Position numbers and translations under genes: made by a program. A stretch of DNA of 54,370 bases, from the NCBI GenBank assembly GCA_001803165.1, contig MHAZ01000010.1:1-54370 (forward strand), written 5' to 3'. This stretch comes from Stygiobacter sp. RIFOXYC2_FULL_38_25. Its GTDB lineage: Bacteria > Bacteroidota > Ignavibacteria > Ignavibacteriales > Melioribacteraceae. This document shows positions 30,294 through 36,108 of this stretch, in pieces. The first letter of the stretch is position 1; each line of letters begins with the position of its first letter. The notes beneath the pieces are model-generated. The model did not search any database, had not been told where the DNA came from, and was given only the letters and a program-made list of their open reading frames with translations.

Positions 30294-30776
30294 TCACTCT
30301 GTCGATTTTTCAAAAAGCAATTTCCCAATCCACCAAATCGATTGGCCAAAATTGGATATCAATTGTTCTCCTTGCCTCAAAAACGACTTGCTTTCGTCAA
30401 TTCCCGCGAGTTTTAATGCATCTCCGATATTAGAGCTAGTGGGGTGAGCATCCCCTACTCGCATATCATATGCACCAACAATTGGTCCAATGACTTTACG
30501 AGCTTTATCAATGCCAATTTTCTGAGCTAGTATATCCTGTAAGAGCTTATTTGAGCTCAATTTCTCCTTATCTGAATGTGTTGATAATTTGCGTAGTTCA
30601 CGCACATCAAGACGGTCAGAAAAAACACGAATGAGCTCTTTTGCCAATCTCAGCAATGATTCTTGATCCCTGCTGGCAAAGCGAGATATTTGCTTCATAG
30701 ATTCTGAGCTTTCTATTTTATGCTTGAAAAGAGAAATTTTGAAATCATGTTGAAACATGTCCTCAAGCTTACTCAT
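30294..30776 (-). CDS. Protein of unknown function with HEPN-like R-x4-H motif
   Basis: I do not recognise a named family. The 160 residues are largely helical. About residues 93-125 read RKVIGPIVGAYDMRVGDAH then PTSSNIGDALKLAGI. YDMRVGDAH has the R-x4-H spacing (Arg106, His111) and the surrounding pattern of HEPN ribonuclease-type domains (compare YDLRNxxAH), so an RNase or toxin function is possible but unproven. The ATG overlaps the stop of the 425-residue partner (ATGA) with only GAAG two bases before it, a poor ribosome site. A one-base slip in the T9 run just upstream would fuse this product to the partner. Confidence 0.65.
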   Translation of the reverse strand: MSKLEDMFQHDFKISLFKHKIESSESMKQISRFASRDQESLLRLAKELIRVFSDRLDVRELRKLSTHSDKEKLSSNKLLQDILAQKIGIDKARKVIGPIVGAYDMRVGDAHPTSSNIGDALKLAGIDESKSFLRQGEQLISNFGQSIWWIGKLLFEKSTE

Positions 30777-32050
30777 AACTTCAAAAAAAAATTCTTCAGC
30801 AGCATGGGTAGATGCTGGCTGAACTTTCCTTGTGAGGCTAATAATTCATTCGAAACCTTTCCATCTGGGACAACATTTTGGGTTGCCCAAACATGCTGCT
30901 CCCACGCTGGAAGGCGAGCTATATCATATGCGTAAACTGTGATTAAATCAGAAGAATTTATACCGAAGTGGATAGAATATCCAGATGTGGACAGAATGCC
31001 TCCAGTTTCTGCTGTAAACCACTTAAGGGAAAATCCTCGAAGACCAAGAAGCTCATTTACTATGCTTGAACGAAACCAAAGCCATCTACCAATATCTTCG
31101 TTGTTTAATTCAGTAGAAGCCATCCATGACCCATCTGTCTCTACTATGAATTTAGGTAAATTTGTGTCTTCATCTCCCCTAATTCGCTTGCTTGTCCCTG
31201 AATGCTCAATCCATTCATCGCGCCAAAACTCACCTGAAATCCGCACACCATTATAACCGCTACGATGACCTTCGGTTGTTTCAGAATCAGTATTTTCGTT
31301 TGTTTCTGGTCCCATAACTGGCGCATCTTCTTCTTCATCAACATCAGTTCGCCAAGCTCGCAACATAGCCCAACTGCCGCCAAATACATCATTTAAACTT
31401 CGCATTAGCAACTCATATCGACCACCATCTCGCTTCTCCTTATGTTCTCCCAAGCCTGCGTATTCACTAGCTTCAAGCGTTACTACATTTTCAACTCTTT
31501 GACGGTAGTAAGACAGGCGAAGTGATAAACCTCTAGCAGCCAAATAATCGAGAAGGTACTCTCTTTTAATCTCTATCAGGTGCTTTTTACCTTCATCATC
31601 ATGTACTTCTCTTGCAACAACAACGAAATTCTCTTCTGGTCTTACCCAGTTAGCTCCTTCTTTTATAAGACGAAGAGCAACAACTAAGTCAGGATTCAAA
31701 ATCCATAGATTTCCACCAATTACTGGTTGAGGGTGTTCAAAGACAAGGTGAATTCCTATTGGTTCCTTGTCATTCCTTTGGTACTGCTCAATAGTAGAGT
31801 AATAACCATCTTCGTAAGCATAGGGTTGAATATAACAACCTAATCCAATATCCCCCCAGCTAAGATTTTCTGCAATTTCTCGATGTTCTGGAGGAAAGGC
31901 TACAGACCCGCACCCGAAATACTCTTCGATGTATCCGGTATCGCTAACTTTACCTTTCTCATCATTAATTGATGCCCTCAAAGGCACCCAGGTTGATTTC
32001 GAATAGGTTCGGCGTGTTTCCTTTTTTTGAAGAATCCAATCTTTGTTCAT
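30773..32050 (-). CDS. Protein of unknown function, partner of the HEPN-like gene
   Basis: No family recognised. The 425 residues are soluble, without signal peptide or membrane helix. Conserved-looking blocks include SKSTWVPLRASIND (about 17-30), EEYFGCGSVAFPPEH, IGIHLVFEHPQPVIGGNLWILNPDLV (split over about 97-124), and a C-terminal LPAWEQHVWATQNVVPDGKVS then NELLASQGKFSQ. Residues about 240-262 are an acidic, probably flexible linker. AGGG lies just before the ATG. The ccgg tetranucleotide, frequent in neighbours, occurs once in the whole 1.76-kb cassette, a hint of foreign origin. It ends in KNFFLKL at a T9 run shared with the downstream gene. Confidence 0.7.
   Translation of the reverse strand: MNKDWILQKKETRRTYSKSTWVPLRASINDEKGKVSDTGYIEEYFGCGSVAFPPEHREIAENLSWGDIGLGCYIQPYAYEDGYYSTIEQYQRNDKEPIGIHLVFEHPQPVIGGNLWILNPDLVVALRLIKEGANWVRPEENFVVVAREVHDDEGKKHLIEIKREYLLDYLAARGLSLRLSYYRQRVENVVTLEASEYAGLGEHKEKRDGGRYELLMRSLNDVFGGSWAMLRAWRTDVDEEEDAPVMGPETNENTDSETTEGHRSGYNGVRISGEFWRDEWIEHSGTSKRIRGDEDTNLPKFIVETDGSWMASTELNNEDIGRWLWFRSSIVNELLGLRGFSLKWFTAETGGILSTSGYSIHFGINSSDLITVYAYDIARLPAWEQHVWATQNVVPDGKVSNELLASQGKFSQHLPMLLKNFFLKL
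30783..30791 (-). other. T9 homopolymer at the junction of the two accessory genes
   Basis: Nine A on the plus strand (nine T/U in the message), five codons before the stop of the 425-residue gene. With ten T, or a -1 ribosomal slip, the frame runs on as N-F-F-F-E-V-M into the HEPN-like gene without a stop. Confidence 0.85.
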
Positions 32051-32270: not shown

Positions 32271-33587
32271 TTACTTCTTCTCCACTACTACTTTTGAACC
32301 CTCAACACGTATTACAACAATCTCAGAATGCCTAGGAATGTAATCTCCGTCAGTGATTACGTCCGCTCTTAAGCCGTTAAATATTGCTGTGCCGCTTGGT
32401 CGTAAATCTGTAAGCGCTGTACCGGCAACGCCTACTAACTGTTCATACTGCGAGTTTGCAGCATAGCCGGATTTTGAAGGAAGATTGTCGTGTAATATCA
32501 ATCGGTTAAATGTTTCCGACTTTGGCAGCAACTTCCACAAGAAATAAATTACAACCGCTGTCATTACAAAACTTCCGGCTAATTGGATGATTGCAATCGA
32601 AATAGAATTTGTTGACGCAATATCCAGATCGGAAATCAACCCGAAGAACAAGCCAAGTATCATCAAAACAATTCCGGCGAAACCGGCAATTCCAAATCCG
32701 GGGATAACAAAAATCTCAATGATTAAAAGTATAACACCAACAACAAAAATTATTATTTCCCAGATTGTTGCCAGCTGTAAAATGTAACTCGTCCCAAAAA
32801 ACAAAGCGAGTGCTATTACTCCCGCGGTTCCGGCAAGTCCCCAACCCGGTGTTTTAATCTCAGTAAACAAACCAATCATACCAATCATTATTAGCAGCGA
32901 AGAAATAACCGGATTGTTAATAAAGCGGACAATATCTTCCGCCCAGTTAGAGCTTACGTCAACATCTTCTTCATTCATCAAACCGTAAATCTTTTTTACC
33001 TCTTCAATCGAAGTTAAAGTTGTGTCAGCCATTTTATATTTAACTGCTTCTTCAGTAGTTAGAGTTACCAACTTTGTGCTATCATCTTGCAAATCTGGGA
33101 CAACAACGGTTTCATCAACCATAGCTTGAGCTATATCGGTTCTTCTGCCATTCTTCTCAGCAGTTGCGCGCATCTCTGAACGCATATACGATTGATATTT
33201 CTCCGCTTGCTTCTTCCCTTCTTGATCAACAACAGTCGAAGCGCCTATAGAAGCGCCGGGCACCATAACAATCTTTTCGCAAGAAAGAGCTATTAAAGCC
33301 CCGGCGGAAATTGCCCGTTTATCAATGAAGGCTATTGTTCTAACACGACTGTTGAGAATTGCGTCTTTGATTTGCGTCGCGGCATCAACTCTGCCGCCGA
33401 ATGTGTTAATCTTAAAAATGATTGCCTTAGCGGAATTTTTTTCCGCCTCGTTAACAACCCGTTTAACATAAGGAGCGAGCCCGAGATCAATTTCTCCGTC
33501 AATGTAAGCGATGTAAACTTTTTGTGCTGGCACTAAAGATGTGAATAAGAAGCCGAGTAGAATTGCTAAAACGATTTTGAATTTCAT
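32271..33587 (-). CDS. NfeD-family membrane-bound ClpP-class serine protease
   Basis: Long-form NfeD protein (438 residues). It has a signal peptide (cut near 21), a ClpP/SppA-like protease domain (about 23-200) with the serine in RAISAGALIA (Ser94) and the FKINTFGGRVDAATQI substrate-groove segment, a four-to-five-helix membrane region (about 220-350), and a C-terminal OB-fold NfeD domain (about 365-438; GVAGTALTDLRPSGTA). In archaeal homologues this protease cleaves stomatin partners; no stomatin gene is adjacent here. It lies 20 bases after the ureohydrolase homologue. Confidence 0.9.
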   Translation of the reverse strand: MKFKIVLAILLGFLFTSLVPAQKVYIAYIDGEIDLGLAPYVKRVVNEAEKNSAKAIIFKINTFGGRVDAATQIKDAILNSRVRTIAFIDKRAISAGALIALSCEKIVMVPGASIGASTVVDQEGKKQAEKYQSYMRSEMRATAEKNGRRTDIAQAMVDETVVVPDLQDDSTKLVTLTTEEAVKYKMADTTLTSIEEVKKIYGLMNEEDVDVSSNWAEDIVRFINNPVISSLLIMIGMIGLFTEIKTPGWGLAGTAGVIALALFFGTSYILQLATIWEIIIFVVGVILLIIEIFVIPGFGIAGFAGIVLMILGLFFGLISDLDIASTNSISIAIIQLAGSFVMTAVVIYFLWKLLPKSETFNRLILHDNLPSKSGYAANSQYEQLVGVAGTALTDLRPSGTAIFNGLRADVITDGDYIPRHSEIVVIRVEGSKVVVEKK

Positions 33588-33607: not shown

Positions 33608-34495
33608 CTAACTTTTACTTAGTGCGTAATTTAGAATTTTGTAAATCAATTTTGCCACAAAATAATTTGAAGATGAATTTGCAGAGCTTGGAACCAAACC
33701 CATCACATCAAAACCAACAATTGTTCTGTCCTGCCCAATAACTTTGAATAAGTACATAATCTCATCCCAGTACAAACCGCCCGGTTCGGGATTTTCAACA
33801 GCGCTTATTACGCTTGGATCAAACGCGCTTAGATCTAATGTAATGTAAACCTTATCTGATAAATTTCGGTTAACAAGTTCTTGCCAATCATCGCCATACA
33901 TTCCAAGTTTTATTTCGCACGCAAGAAATTGGTGTATCTGCTTCTCAACGCGGAATTCATTTTCCTCTTTGCTTTGAGAGCGGATGCCAACTTGAGTAAT
34001 CTTGGAATTAAACTCAGCAACCCGGGAAATTAAATTTTCGTGAGGTGATTTGGTTTGCCATTCTTGTTTCATATTCGCGCGCGAATCAATATGAAGTACC
34101 GACAATGATTCAAACTTCTTCTGAAAAGCTTTAATTGCACCGTAAGCAATAGAATGACTTCCGCCAATTGTAGCAACTGTTTTATTCTGCTCACCCAGCA
34201 ATGAAATCTCTTTCTCAACTTTTTCTACTGCTTTAACATAAGACAACTTCTGAAGATTCAGAGTCTCTAAGGTTGCAATTCCTTTTTCAAAACAAAGCTC
34301 GCCGCCCATTTCTTCATCATACGGTTCAAGTTTAGCCGAGGCTTTGATAATTTCTCTTGCCCCTCTTGAGAACACAGTCTTCGCAGTTTTCTGTTCAGAA
34401 TAAATGACTGGAACAATTGCCGCTTGAGAATTATTTAGTGAAGAGTATTTTTTATCGAGAGAGAGGAAATTTGTTTTTTTATCAGCTGTTGTCAT
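33608..34495 (-). CDS. Ureohydrolase (agmatinase/arginase) superfamily protein with degenerate metal site
   Basis: The fold is that of agmatinases, full length at 295 residues: GGSHSIAYGA (111-120), QVGIRSQSKEE (168-178), ENPEPGGLYWDEI (234-246) and a VAKLIYKIL ending. The dinuclear manganese site is incomplete. The DAHxD motif reads DSRAN (137-141), the DxD of the third motif reads DLS (221-223), and the Glu of the VELxP motif is Gly266. His114, Asp137 and Asp221 remain. Three of six usual ligands are lost, so agmatinase or arginase activity is unlikely. It may be a binding or regulatory protein, or use different chemistry. Confidence 0.85.
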   Translation of the reverse strand: MTTADKKTNFLSLDKKYSSLNNSQAAIVPVIYSEQKTAKTVFSRGAREIIKASAKLEPYDEEMGGELCFEKGIATLETLNLQKLSYVKAVEKVEKEISLLGEQNKTVATIGGSHSIAYGAIKAFQKKFESLSVLHIDSRANMKQEWQTKSPHENLISRVAEFNSKITQVGIRSQSKEENEFRVEKQIHQFLACEIKLGMYGDDWQELVNRNLSDKVYITLDLSAFDPSVISAVENPEPGGLYWDEIMYLFKVIGQDRTIVGFDVMGLVPSSANSSSNYFVAKLIYKILNYALSKS

Positions 34496-34533: not shown

Positions 34534-34590
34534 CTTTGTGTCTTAGTGACTTAGTGGCGTTTTTTCTTGCCACAAAGGCACCAAGGCACA
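34534..34590. repeat. CTTAGTGACTTAGTGGC / GCCACAAAGGCACCAAGG word pair
   Basis: CTTTGTGTCTTAGTGACTTAGTGGC-type DNA followed by an imperfect reverse complement (GCCACAAAGGCACCAAGGCAC) separated by a T run, giving a weak hairpin. Non-coding, between the ureohydrolase homologue and yajC. Confidence 0.5.
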
Positions 34591-34623: not shown

Positions 34624-34950
34624 TTATTTTGTCTCTTCTTTAGATTTATTAACCGAAGCGATTGCCGAGCGCTCAAACTTAATCTTAACATTATTGCCAA
34701 CATCAACAAGAATAGTTTTTTCTTCTAATCCGGCAACTGTACCATGCATTCCGCCGCTCATAACTACTTTATCACCCTTCTGTAAAGATTCCAACATGCT
34801 CTTATGTTCTTTTTGTCTTTTCTGCTGAGGACGAATAATCATAAAATAAAAAATTGCGAAGATAGCACCGAACATAATAAGAGTGCTTACCATTCCGCCG
34901 CCACCGCCTTGTCCGTTTGCCGGAGGTGCCATTGCTAACAAGAATTCCAT
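34624..34950 (-). CDS. yajC: Preprotein translocase subunit YajC
   Basis: Accessory subunit of the Sec translocon with SecD/SecF. The 108 residues have a Gly-rich N-terminus, one membrane helix (about 20-38, MVSTLIMFGAIFAIFYFMI), then the hallmark RPQQKRQKEHKSMLESLQKGDKVV segment (about 40-63). The GGAG ribosome site lies inside the end of tgt, whose stop directly precedes this ATG. The tgt-yajC pair is conserved in many bacteria; secD is not present here. Confidence 0.95.
   Translation of the reverse strand: MEFLLAMAPPANGQGGGGGMVSTLIMFGAIFAIFYFMIIRPQQKRQKEHKSMLESLQKGDKVVMSGGMHGTVAGLEEKTILVDVGNNVKIKFERSAIASVNKSKEETK

Positions 34951-36108
<1,158 letters not shown>

Follow-up and report, generated by a model that had tools for sequence, protein, structure and literature searches.

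A Stygiobacter agmatinase orthologue with a dismantled active site, probably retained as a non-catalytic protein beside an agmatine deiminase route

The usual explanation for a dead enzyme is that its gene was duplicated and the inactive copy became the partner of a live paralogue. Among the ureohydrolases, an arginase-like protein of Trypanosoma brucei was reportedly described by Hai et al. in 2015 as a natural ureohydrolase without the binuclear manganese cluster. That protein is said to be of the eukaryotic arginase type, whereas the protein reported here is an agmatinase orthologue in a genome with a replacement pathway. In metformin hydrolase, the subunit MetCb is a dead arginase-family protein without the metal site and needs the live MetCa, and the functions of other metal-free members of the family are called elusive (PMC11271267, partial text). 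Another example is the arginase/agmatinase domain fused behind ornithine decarboxylase (ODC) in Fusobacterium nucleatum, where metal-ligand Asp residues are replaced by Ser and Asn and activity was judged unlikely (PMC8503589, partial text). The Stygiobacter protein shares this replacement of Asp ligands by Ser and Asn, but its gene is free-standing. Ureohydrolase pseudoenzymes are already known, and the new part of the present case is the route, in place and alongside pathway replacement. No earlier report of the Stygiobacter case was found in a search of open-licence papers.

The gene lies in a stretch of 54,370 nucleotides of Stygiobacter sp. RIFOXYC2_FULL_38_25 (contig MHAZ01000010.1, positions 1 to 54,370; hereafter the window), and its features are listed in Table 1. 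It is a homologue within the ureohydrolase (arginase/agmatinase) superfamily. PF00491 (Arginase, Pfam) matches residues 24-287 with 133.6 bits against a cut-off of 22, and the structure predicted by AlphaFold2 from 7 sequences (pLDDT 86.8, pTM 0.90) has the putative agmatinase 3lhl as its top fold match (E 4.9e-18). By sequence the nearest solved chains are 3lhl again and the agmatine ureohydrolase 3pzl. The top NCBIfam model is the agmatinase model TIGR01230, with a score of 154.2 bits, below its curated cut-off of 174.3. E. coli agmatinase SpeB binds two Mn via H126, D149, H151, D153, D230 and D232, and contact with the guanidinium is proposed for its H163, T244 and E274 (PMC8049259, partial text). 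The window protein is like SpeB in fold, length, motif order and orthology with intact family members. It differs in that three of the six ligands (2 His, 4 Asp) are gone, H114, D137 and D221 being left according to the motif alignment, and in that the D153/E274 acid pair and the substrate Thr are N141, G266 and N235. The equivalent of H163 is present as H152. The initial annotation, made from the sequence alone, had described DSRAN, DLS and Gly266, the loss of three metal ligands (H139R, D141N and D223S in our motif alignment) and of a guanidinium-contact residue (the E274 equivalent), and a full length without frameshift; the residue table and the ATG-to-TAG frame bear it out in each respect, and the change at the T244 equivalent is a further loss that it did not list. 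Judged from these residues, catalysis by the known mechanism is very unlikely in this protein, and its loss is nearly certain.

Table 1. Features of the agmatinase locus (positions in the window; residue numbers are those of the window protein)
Feature	Position	Strand	Evidence
Agmatinase (SpeB/PF00491) orthologue, catalytically dismantled, 295 aa	33608..34495	-	ORF, Pfam, ligand table
GGSH motif, residues 111-114; ligand H114 present here, lost in 3/5 genus copies	34154..34165	-	residue table
DSRAN, residues 137-141, in place of DAHSD; H139 and D141 replaced, D137 present	34073..34087	-	residue table
DLS, residues 221-223, in place of D(V/L/I)D; D223 replaced, D221 present	33827..33835	-	residue table
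N235 in place of the invariant Thr of TGTPE (SpeB T244)	33791..33793	-	residue table; T244 role from PMC8049259 (partial text)
G266 in place of the invariant Glu of VVEL (SpeB E274)	33698..33700	-	residue table; PMC8049259 (partial text)
Segment 184-214, contains HQFLACEIKLGMYGDDWQELV; best kept in genus relative to intact relatives	33854..33946	-	conservation scan
C-terminal helix 274-292; A281, K282, L283, Y285, K286 and N289 kept in 5/5 genus copies	33620..33676	-	AlphaFold2, conservation
nfeD, next downstream, 20-bp gap; conserved neighbour	32271..33587	-	Pfam, synteny
yajC, next upstream; conserved neighbour	34624..34950	-	Pfam, synteny
tgt, conserved neighbour	34951..36102	-	Pfam, synteny
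Hairpin-forming stretch between yajC and the dead agmatinase	34534-34577	-	
Two overlapping ORFs (160 and 425 aa)	30294-32050	-	

The same gene was followed through the family. In a search of 79 genomes an orthologue was found at 1e-30 in 62, and these were aligned with five orthologues from the same order and two distant ones. At residues 114, 137, 139, 141, 221, 223 and 266 the intact pattern is HDHDDDE, and only six of the 62 family copies have lost ligands. These belong to five members of Stygiobacter, a genus that includes Stygiobacter electus, and to one genome of another genus (G068). All five order copies, both distant ones and, apart from G031, every other family copy (55 of 56) have HDHDDDE; G031 is a partial sequence with six ligands that ends before the Glu. 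The damaged patterns are HDRNDSG in the window genome (G000), HDRNDSN in its nearest relative G003 (72% identical), QGREDSG in G001, IDKRNNG in G004, VDKRNNG in G005 and RDHCDDG in G068. G000 and G003 share DSRAN and DLS, and G004 and G005 share NIN (residues 221-223) and DAK(A/S)R. Thus the loss extends to all Stygiobacter genomes with an assembled copy (5/5) but proceeded differently within the genus. In the sixth genome of the genus, G002, only part of nfeD was found, at a contig end, and its agmatinase copy was left out. On the question put in the initial annotation, whether relatives share exactly DSRAN, DLS and Gly266, the first two motifs recur in G003 alone, but G003 has N266, and the other three members lost ligands by other changes. 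The contrary picture drawn in the initial annotation, of normal relatives with scattered decay in this one sequence, does not apply. Copies in other genera are normal, but within Stygiobacter every assembled copy has losses, and these cluster in the active site.

Did these copies lose their ligands once or twice? The protein tree and trees of the three neighbours (tgt-yajC-nfeD) agree that Stygiobacter is one clade. Poorly filled rows were dropped from the neighbour trees, with 60 of 69 rows kept in one and 75 of 82 in the other. In these trees the genus g2, in which all copies are intact, is sister to Stygiobacter; the SH-aLRT values (88 and 92) fall short of the starred level. In the protein tree G068, with an end branch of 1.49, groups with Stygiobacter (96/90), but in the neighbour trees it goes with g13, a genus with intact copies (90 and 94), and the starred larger clades around that grouping leave Stygiobacter out. 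A single common origin of all damaged copies is rejected, since the neighbour trees disagree with the grouping of G068 and Stygiobacter, which we judge to be long-branch attraction. In our judgement, the ligand losses in Stygiobacter and in G068 would be two independent events.

The gene sits in a conserved slot. The order tgt-yajC-agmatinase-nfeD is seen with damaged copies in the window, G004, G005 and G068, and also in G003 (yajC by tblastn), and with intact copies in G017, G006, G071, G013, G007 and G008. In G001, tgt and yajC precede the agmatinase and the contig ends after the gene. G011 has two genes inserted ahead of nfeD, and G034, of another family, has a different arrangement. The gap to nfeD is 19-20 bp in G000, G003, G004 and G005, with a GAGGG stretch inside, as would suit a gene that serves only as an operon spacer or translational leader for nfeD. 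This explanation is scarcely credible and was rejected, because nfeD directly follows yajC without any agmatinase in seven genomes, six with the deiminase pair described below (G069, G090, G021, G087, G088 and G025) and one without it (G018); besides, selection acts on the amino-acid sequence. The agmatinase is missing too in G015, G010, G012, G026 and G030, which have other arrangements at the locus. Since the gene can go while its neighbours are left in order, its retention in Stygiobacter needs a reason.

Some other elements were observed around the gene. The hairpin-forming stretch upstream of it is of the type CTTTGTGGC...GCCAC...ACTAAGACACAAAG; there is one full copy in the window, a similar stretch lies at the same place in the intact G006, and it may be an interspersed repeat. 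Hairpins are also predicted just before the agmatinase in G003 (L095), G001 (L008), G004 (L096), G005 (L097) and the intact G017 (L098), and those of G003 and G001 are followed by a T run. With hairpins in this place, some genomes may transcribe yajC separately from agmatinase-nfeD. The two overlapping ORFs of Table 1 have no Pfam, NCBIfam or PADLOC match. No ORF like them is seen at the same place in G003, G004, G005 and G017, so that they are perhaps a recent insert.

Under the usual account of dead enzymes the protein would be an inactive partner of a live ureohydrolase, like MetCb beside MetCa, a mechanism known in the arginase family (PMC11271267, partial text). Another PF00491 protein is indeed encoded in the window genome, G003 and G004. 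However, the one in the window genome is an arginase on a different contig, and in G005 and G068 (99% complete) the damaged copy is the sole PF00491 protein found. For MetCb there is a paired gene that encodes the catalytic partner, whereas the Stygiobacter gene has no live arginase-family neighbour, and within the sensitivity of the search none is found elsewhere in G005 and G068 either. For these two genomes the model is rejected, and overall we regard it as very improbable. The arginase of the window genome (L001, G000 C21:249330-250205) has the usual motifs. An additional PF00491 match in G069 was considered as a second damaged copy and set aside, as it carries DAHGD and is not the orthologue.

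Agmatine can be converted into putrescine by agmatinase, or by agmatine deiminase and then N-carbamoylputrescine amidase (PMC8503589, partial text). PF04371, the deiminase profile, matches in 23 of 76 family genomes. A pair was counted where a deiminase of at least 294 bits adjoins an amidase-like gene of at least 298 bits on TIGR03381, and by this definition 17 of the 76 have one: all six Stygiobacter genomes, G068, G069, G071, G075, G010, G015, G021, G025, G087, G088 and G090. In G005 the deiminase is split across two contig ends. Not counted as pairs were a deiminase-like match of 291 bits in G030, which lacks an amidase of this kind, and the PF04371 proteins of five other genomes, which match more weakly and are mostly longer. 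The pair of the window genome (contig C11) consists of adjacent ORFs with 373.8 bits on PF04371 and 219.5 bits on PF00795; both are below the curated NCBI cut-offs for equivalogs (TIGR03380, 260.4 against 381.8 bits; TIGR03381, 314.3 against 410.25 bits). The two proteins are likely to act on substrates of the agmatine route.

The pair is present in 6/6 genomes with a damaged copy against 2/53 with an intact one (59 of the 76 having the orthologue; Fisher p 6e-7, which is overstated as the genomes are related and kinship was ignored). On the neighbour tree, 68 genomes were scored for both traits (75 rows minus 7 without both scores), and the pair is found in 14 of 18 with a damaged or absent agmatinase and in 2 of 50 with an intact one. 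Independent pairs on supported branches agree in 3-4 cases, disagree in none and tie in 1-2 (sign-test p 0.125-0.25). G012, G018, G026 and G030, also placed on the tree, lack both the agmatinase and the pair. At the level of the order, 19/19 genomes of family f3 have a deiminase match (partial in G054) and a weak or no match to agmatinase; the five f2 genomes have the orthologue, and are neither among the 81 deiminase-positive genomes nor among the negatives listed (20 of 83). Takeover by the deiminase and amidase is likely to be the cause of the catalytic loss. It does not force loss, since G071 and G075 have an intact agmatinase beside the pair. These two are g2 genomes (loci L100 and L101). 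G071 evolves slightly fast, with a distance ratio of 1.23-1.43 against four g2 copies (0.85-0.97 for G075), and is perhaps at an early stage of the same loss. Judged from gene content, the supply of agmatine seems unchanged across genomes. Pyruvoyl arginine decarboxylase (PF01862) is found in 65 of 76 and in 5 of the 6 Stygiobacter genomes, and SpeA above cut-off in 3 of 76. A deoxyhypusine-synthase-like protein is present in 67 of 76 and in all six of the genus. In Thermus, homospermidine is made from two agmatines, which a homologous synthase joins before a SpeB-type ureohydrolase completes the product (PMC10981699, partial text), and by analogy the intact agmatinases of the family could act on such a product rather than on agmatine.

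With its purpose gone after the deiminase route came, the gene could be a slowly decaying relic, caught without function at a stage of erosion. This is the main rival to a retained role, and several results are in its favour. Different species lost the ligands in different ways, the agmatinase is gone in related pair-bearing genomes, including the sister of G068 (G069), and the damaged copies evolve faster than their neighbour genes. The agmatinase distance divided by the neighbour-gene distance is 2.7-8.4 for damaged copies (15 pairs), and has a median of 0.9 and a range of 0.22-2.55 in 1325 intact pairs, those with a neighbour distance of at most 0.04 being left out. However, all five assembled copies of the genus have full-length frames, with amino-acid identity among them falling to about 40%, and a simple neutral simulation without indels, run to the same dS, left 0/2000 frames open in each of four settings. 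Neither stops and frameshifts nor a dN/dS near 1, the usual marks of a pseudogene, are seen. By NG86, dN/dS is 0.144 for G000-G003 and 0.309 for G004-G005, in which the loss is suggested to precede the split by the changes common within each pair. Nine computable intact pairs give 0.037-0.139; two further intact pairs and the damaged G000-G001 gave no NG86 dS. Maximum likelihood in Biopython gives 0.064 and 0.030, within the intact range of 0.005-0.080 and without a rise. These values are read as saturated because of dS of 2.6 and 7.3, and NG86 was preferred. Divided into N- and C-terminal halves, NG86 gives 0.16 and 0.12 for G000-G003, and 0.61 and 0.125 for G004-G005. The N-terminal value of the latter pair again suits a relic; the low C-terminal values of both pairs do not. 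Constraint on the Stygiobacter agmatinase is relaxed but real, and we consider a relic unlikely.

The distribution of the losses also speaks against a relic. Among 59 intact orthologues (G031 as partial, G084 and the distant rows L055 and L056 being left out of the counts), 87 positions are invariant (at least 97%); 31 of them are lost in at least four of the five genus copies and 31 are kept in all five. Within the active-site motifs, chosen from general knowledge of the agmatinase family, 19 are lost and none is kept in all five, and elsewhere 12 are lost and 31 kept (p 7e-8, which is optimistic as the motif set was picked after the lost positions had been viewed). Motif positions such as H114, D137 and D221, lost in part of the genus, fall into neither class. 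The concentration of losses in the active-site motifs is not due to chance. Segment 184-214 is the best-kept stretch of 31 residues. Its conservation in the genus exceeds that in the intact set as a whole (reached by 0/5000 shuffles); compared with the 20 nearest intact copies it is just the least relaxed part (20/5000 shuffles). Much of the core and the C-terminal helix likewise persist.

The protein could instead have stayed enzymatic, whether through a changed or single-metal site or by catalysing another reaction in the old pocket. In the window copy and in G003 the same three ligands remain, so that one metal could perhaps bind, and G001 has an acid (Glu) at 141. Moreover, eleven positions are invariant in the genus yet different from the intact consensus, and one of them is a new His (Q135H), two residues before D137. 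But the leftover ligands differ within the genus, with only D221 in G001 and only D137 in G004 and G005. The equivalents of SpeB E274 and T244 are lost in all five, and that of D153 is N, N, E, R and R. His at 135 is also found, by alignment, in the normal relative 3lhl and is no sign of a new site. Continued catalysis of this kind appears improbable.

The reading we prefer, with a probability of roughly 0.6, is that the deiminase pair took over and a single-copy agmatinase was then converted in place into a retained non-catalytic protein. The gene is the family's vertically inherited agmatinase and lies where it usually does, between yajC and nfeD. The deiminase and amidase, from their co-occurrence with damaged copies, probably took over the step from agmatine to putrescine, which would have lifted selection on catalysis. 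The residue patterns show an active site dismantled in all assembled Stygiobacter copies and damaged, separately in our judgement, in G068. Several other pair-bearing lineages lack the gene, whereas Stygiobacter has kept its frame and many non-catalytic positions under purifying selection. From that selection we infer that the protein has a role that needs no catalysis, most likely that of a folded partner in binding or scaffolding, through a putative surface to which segment 184-214 and the C-terminal helix belong. The conversion would have occurred in place, with no spare duplicate as its starting point, and at least two genomes offer no other ureohydrolase as a partner. A retained non-catalytic function is probable for the Stygiobacter protein on these sequence grounds. 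The idea of a retained pseudo-enzyme or a protein with changed function, first raised in the initial annotation, gains support from the five full-length frames, dN/dS well below 1 and the predicted intact fold. At somewhat less than even odds, we tentatively extend it to an in-place conversion, perhaps twice, to a non-enzymatic selected role, in which segment 184-214 and the C-terminal helix would mark a second function already present in the intact agmatinases of these genera.

Unlike in the usual account of dead enzymes, no duplicate is seen in the Stygiobacter case. The living genomes of one family show every stage by which such a change would proceed: agmatinase intact alone, intact with the route, dead with the route, and deleted with the route. 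Annotation by family name would credit the putrescine-forming step to a protein that is very probably incapable of catalysing it. The conservation that is left over suggests that agmatinase may have a hidden role outside catalysis.
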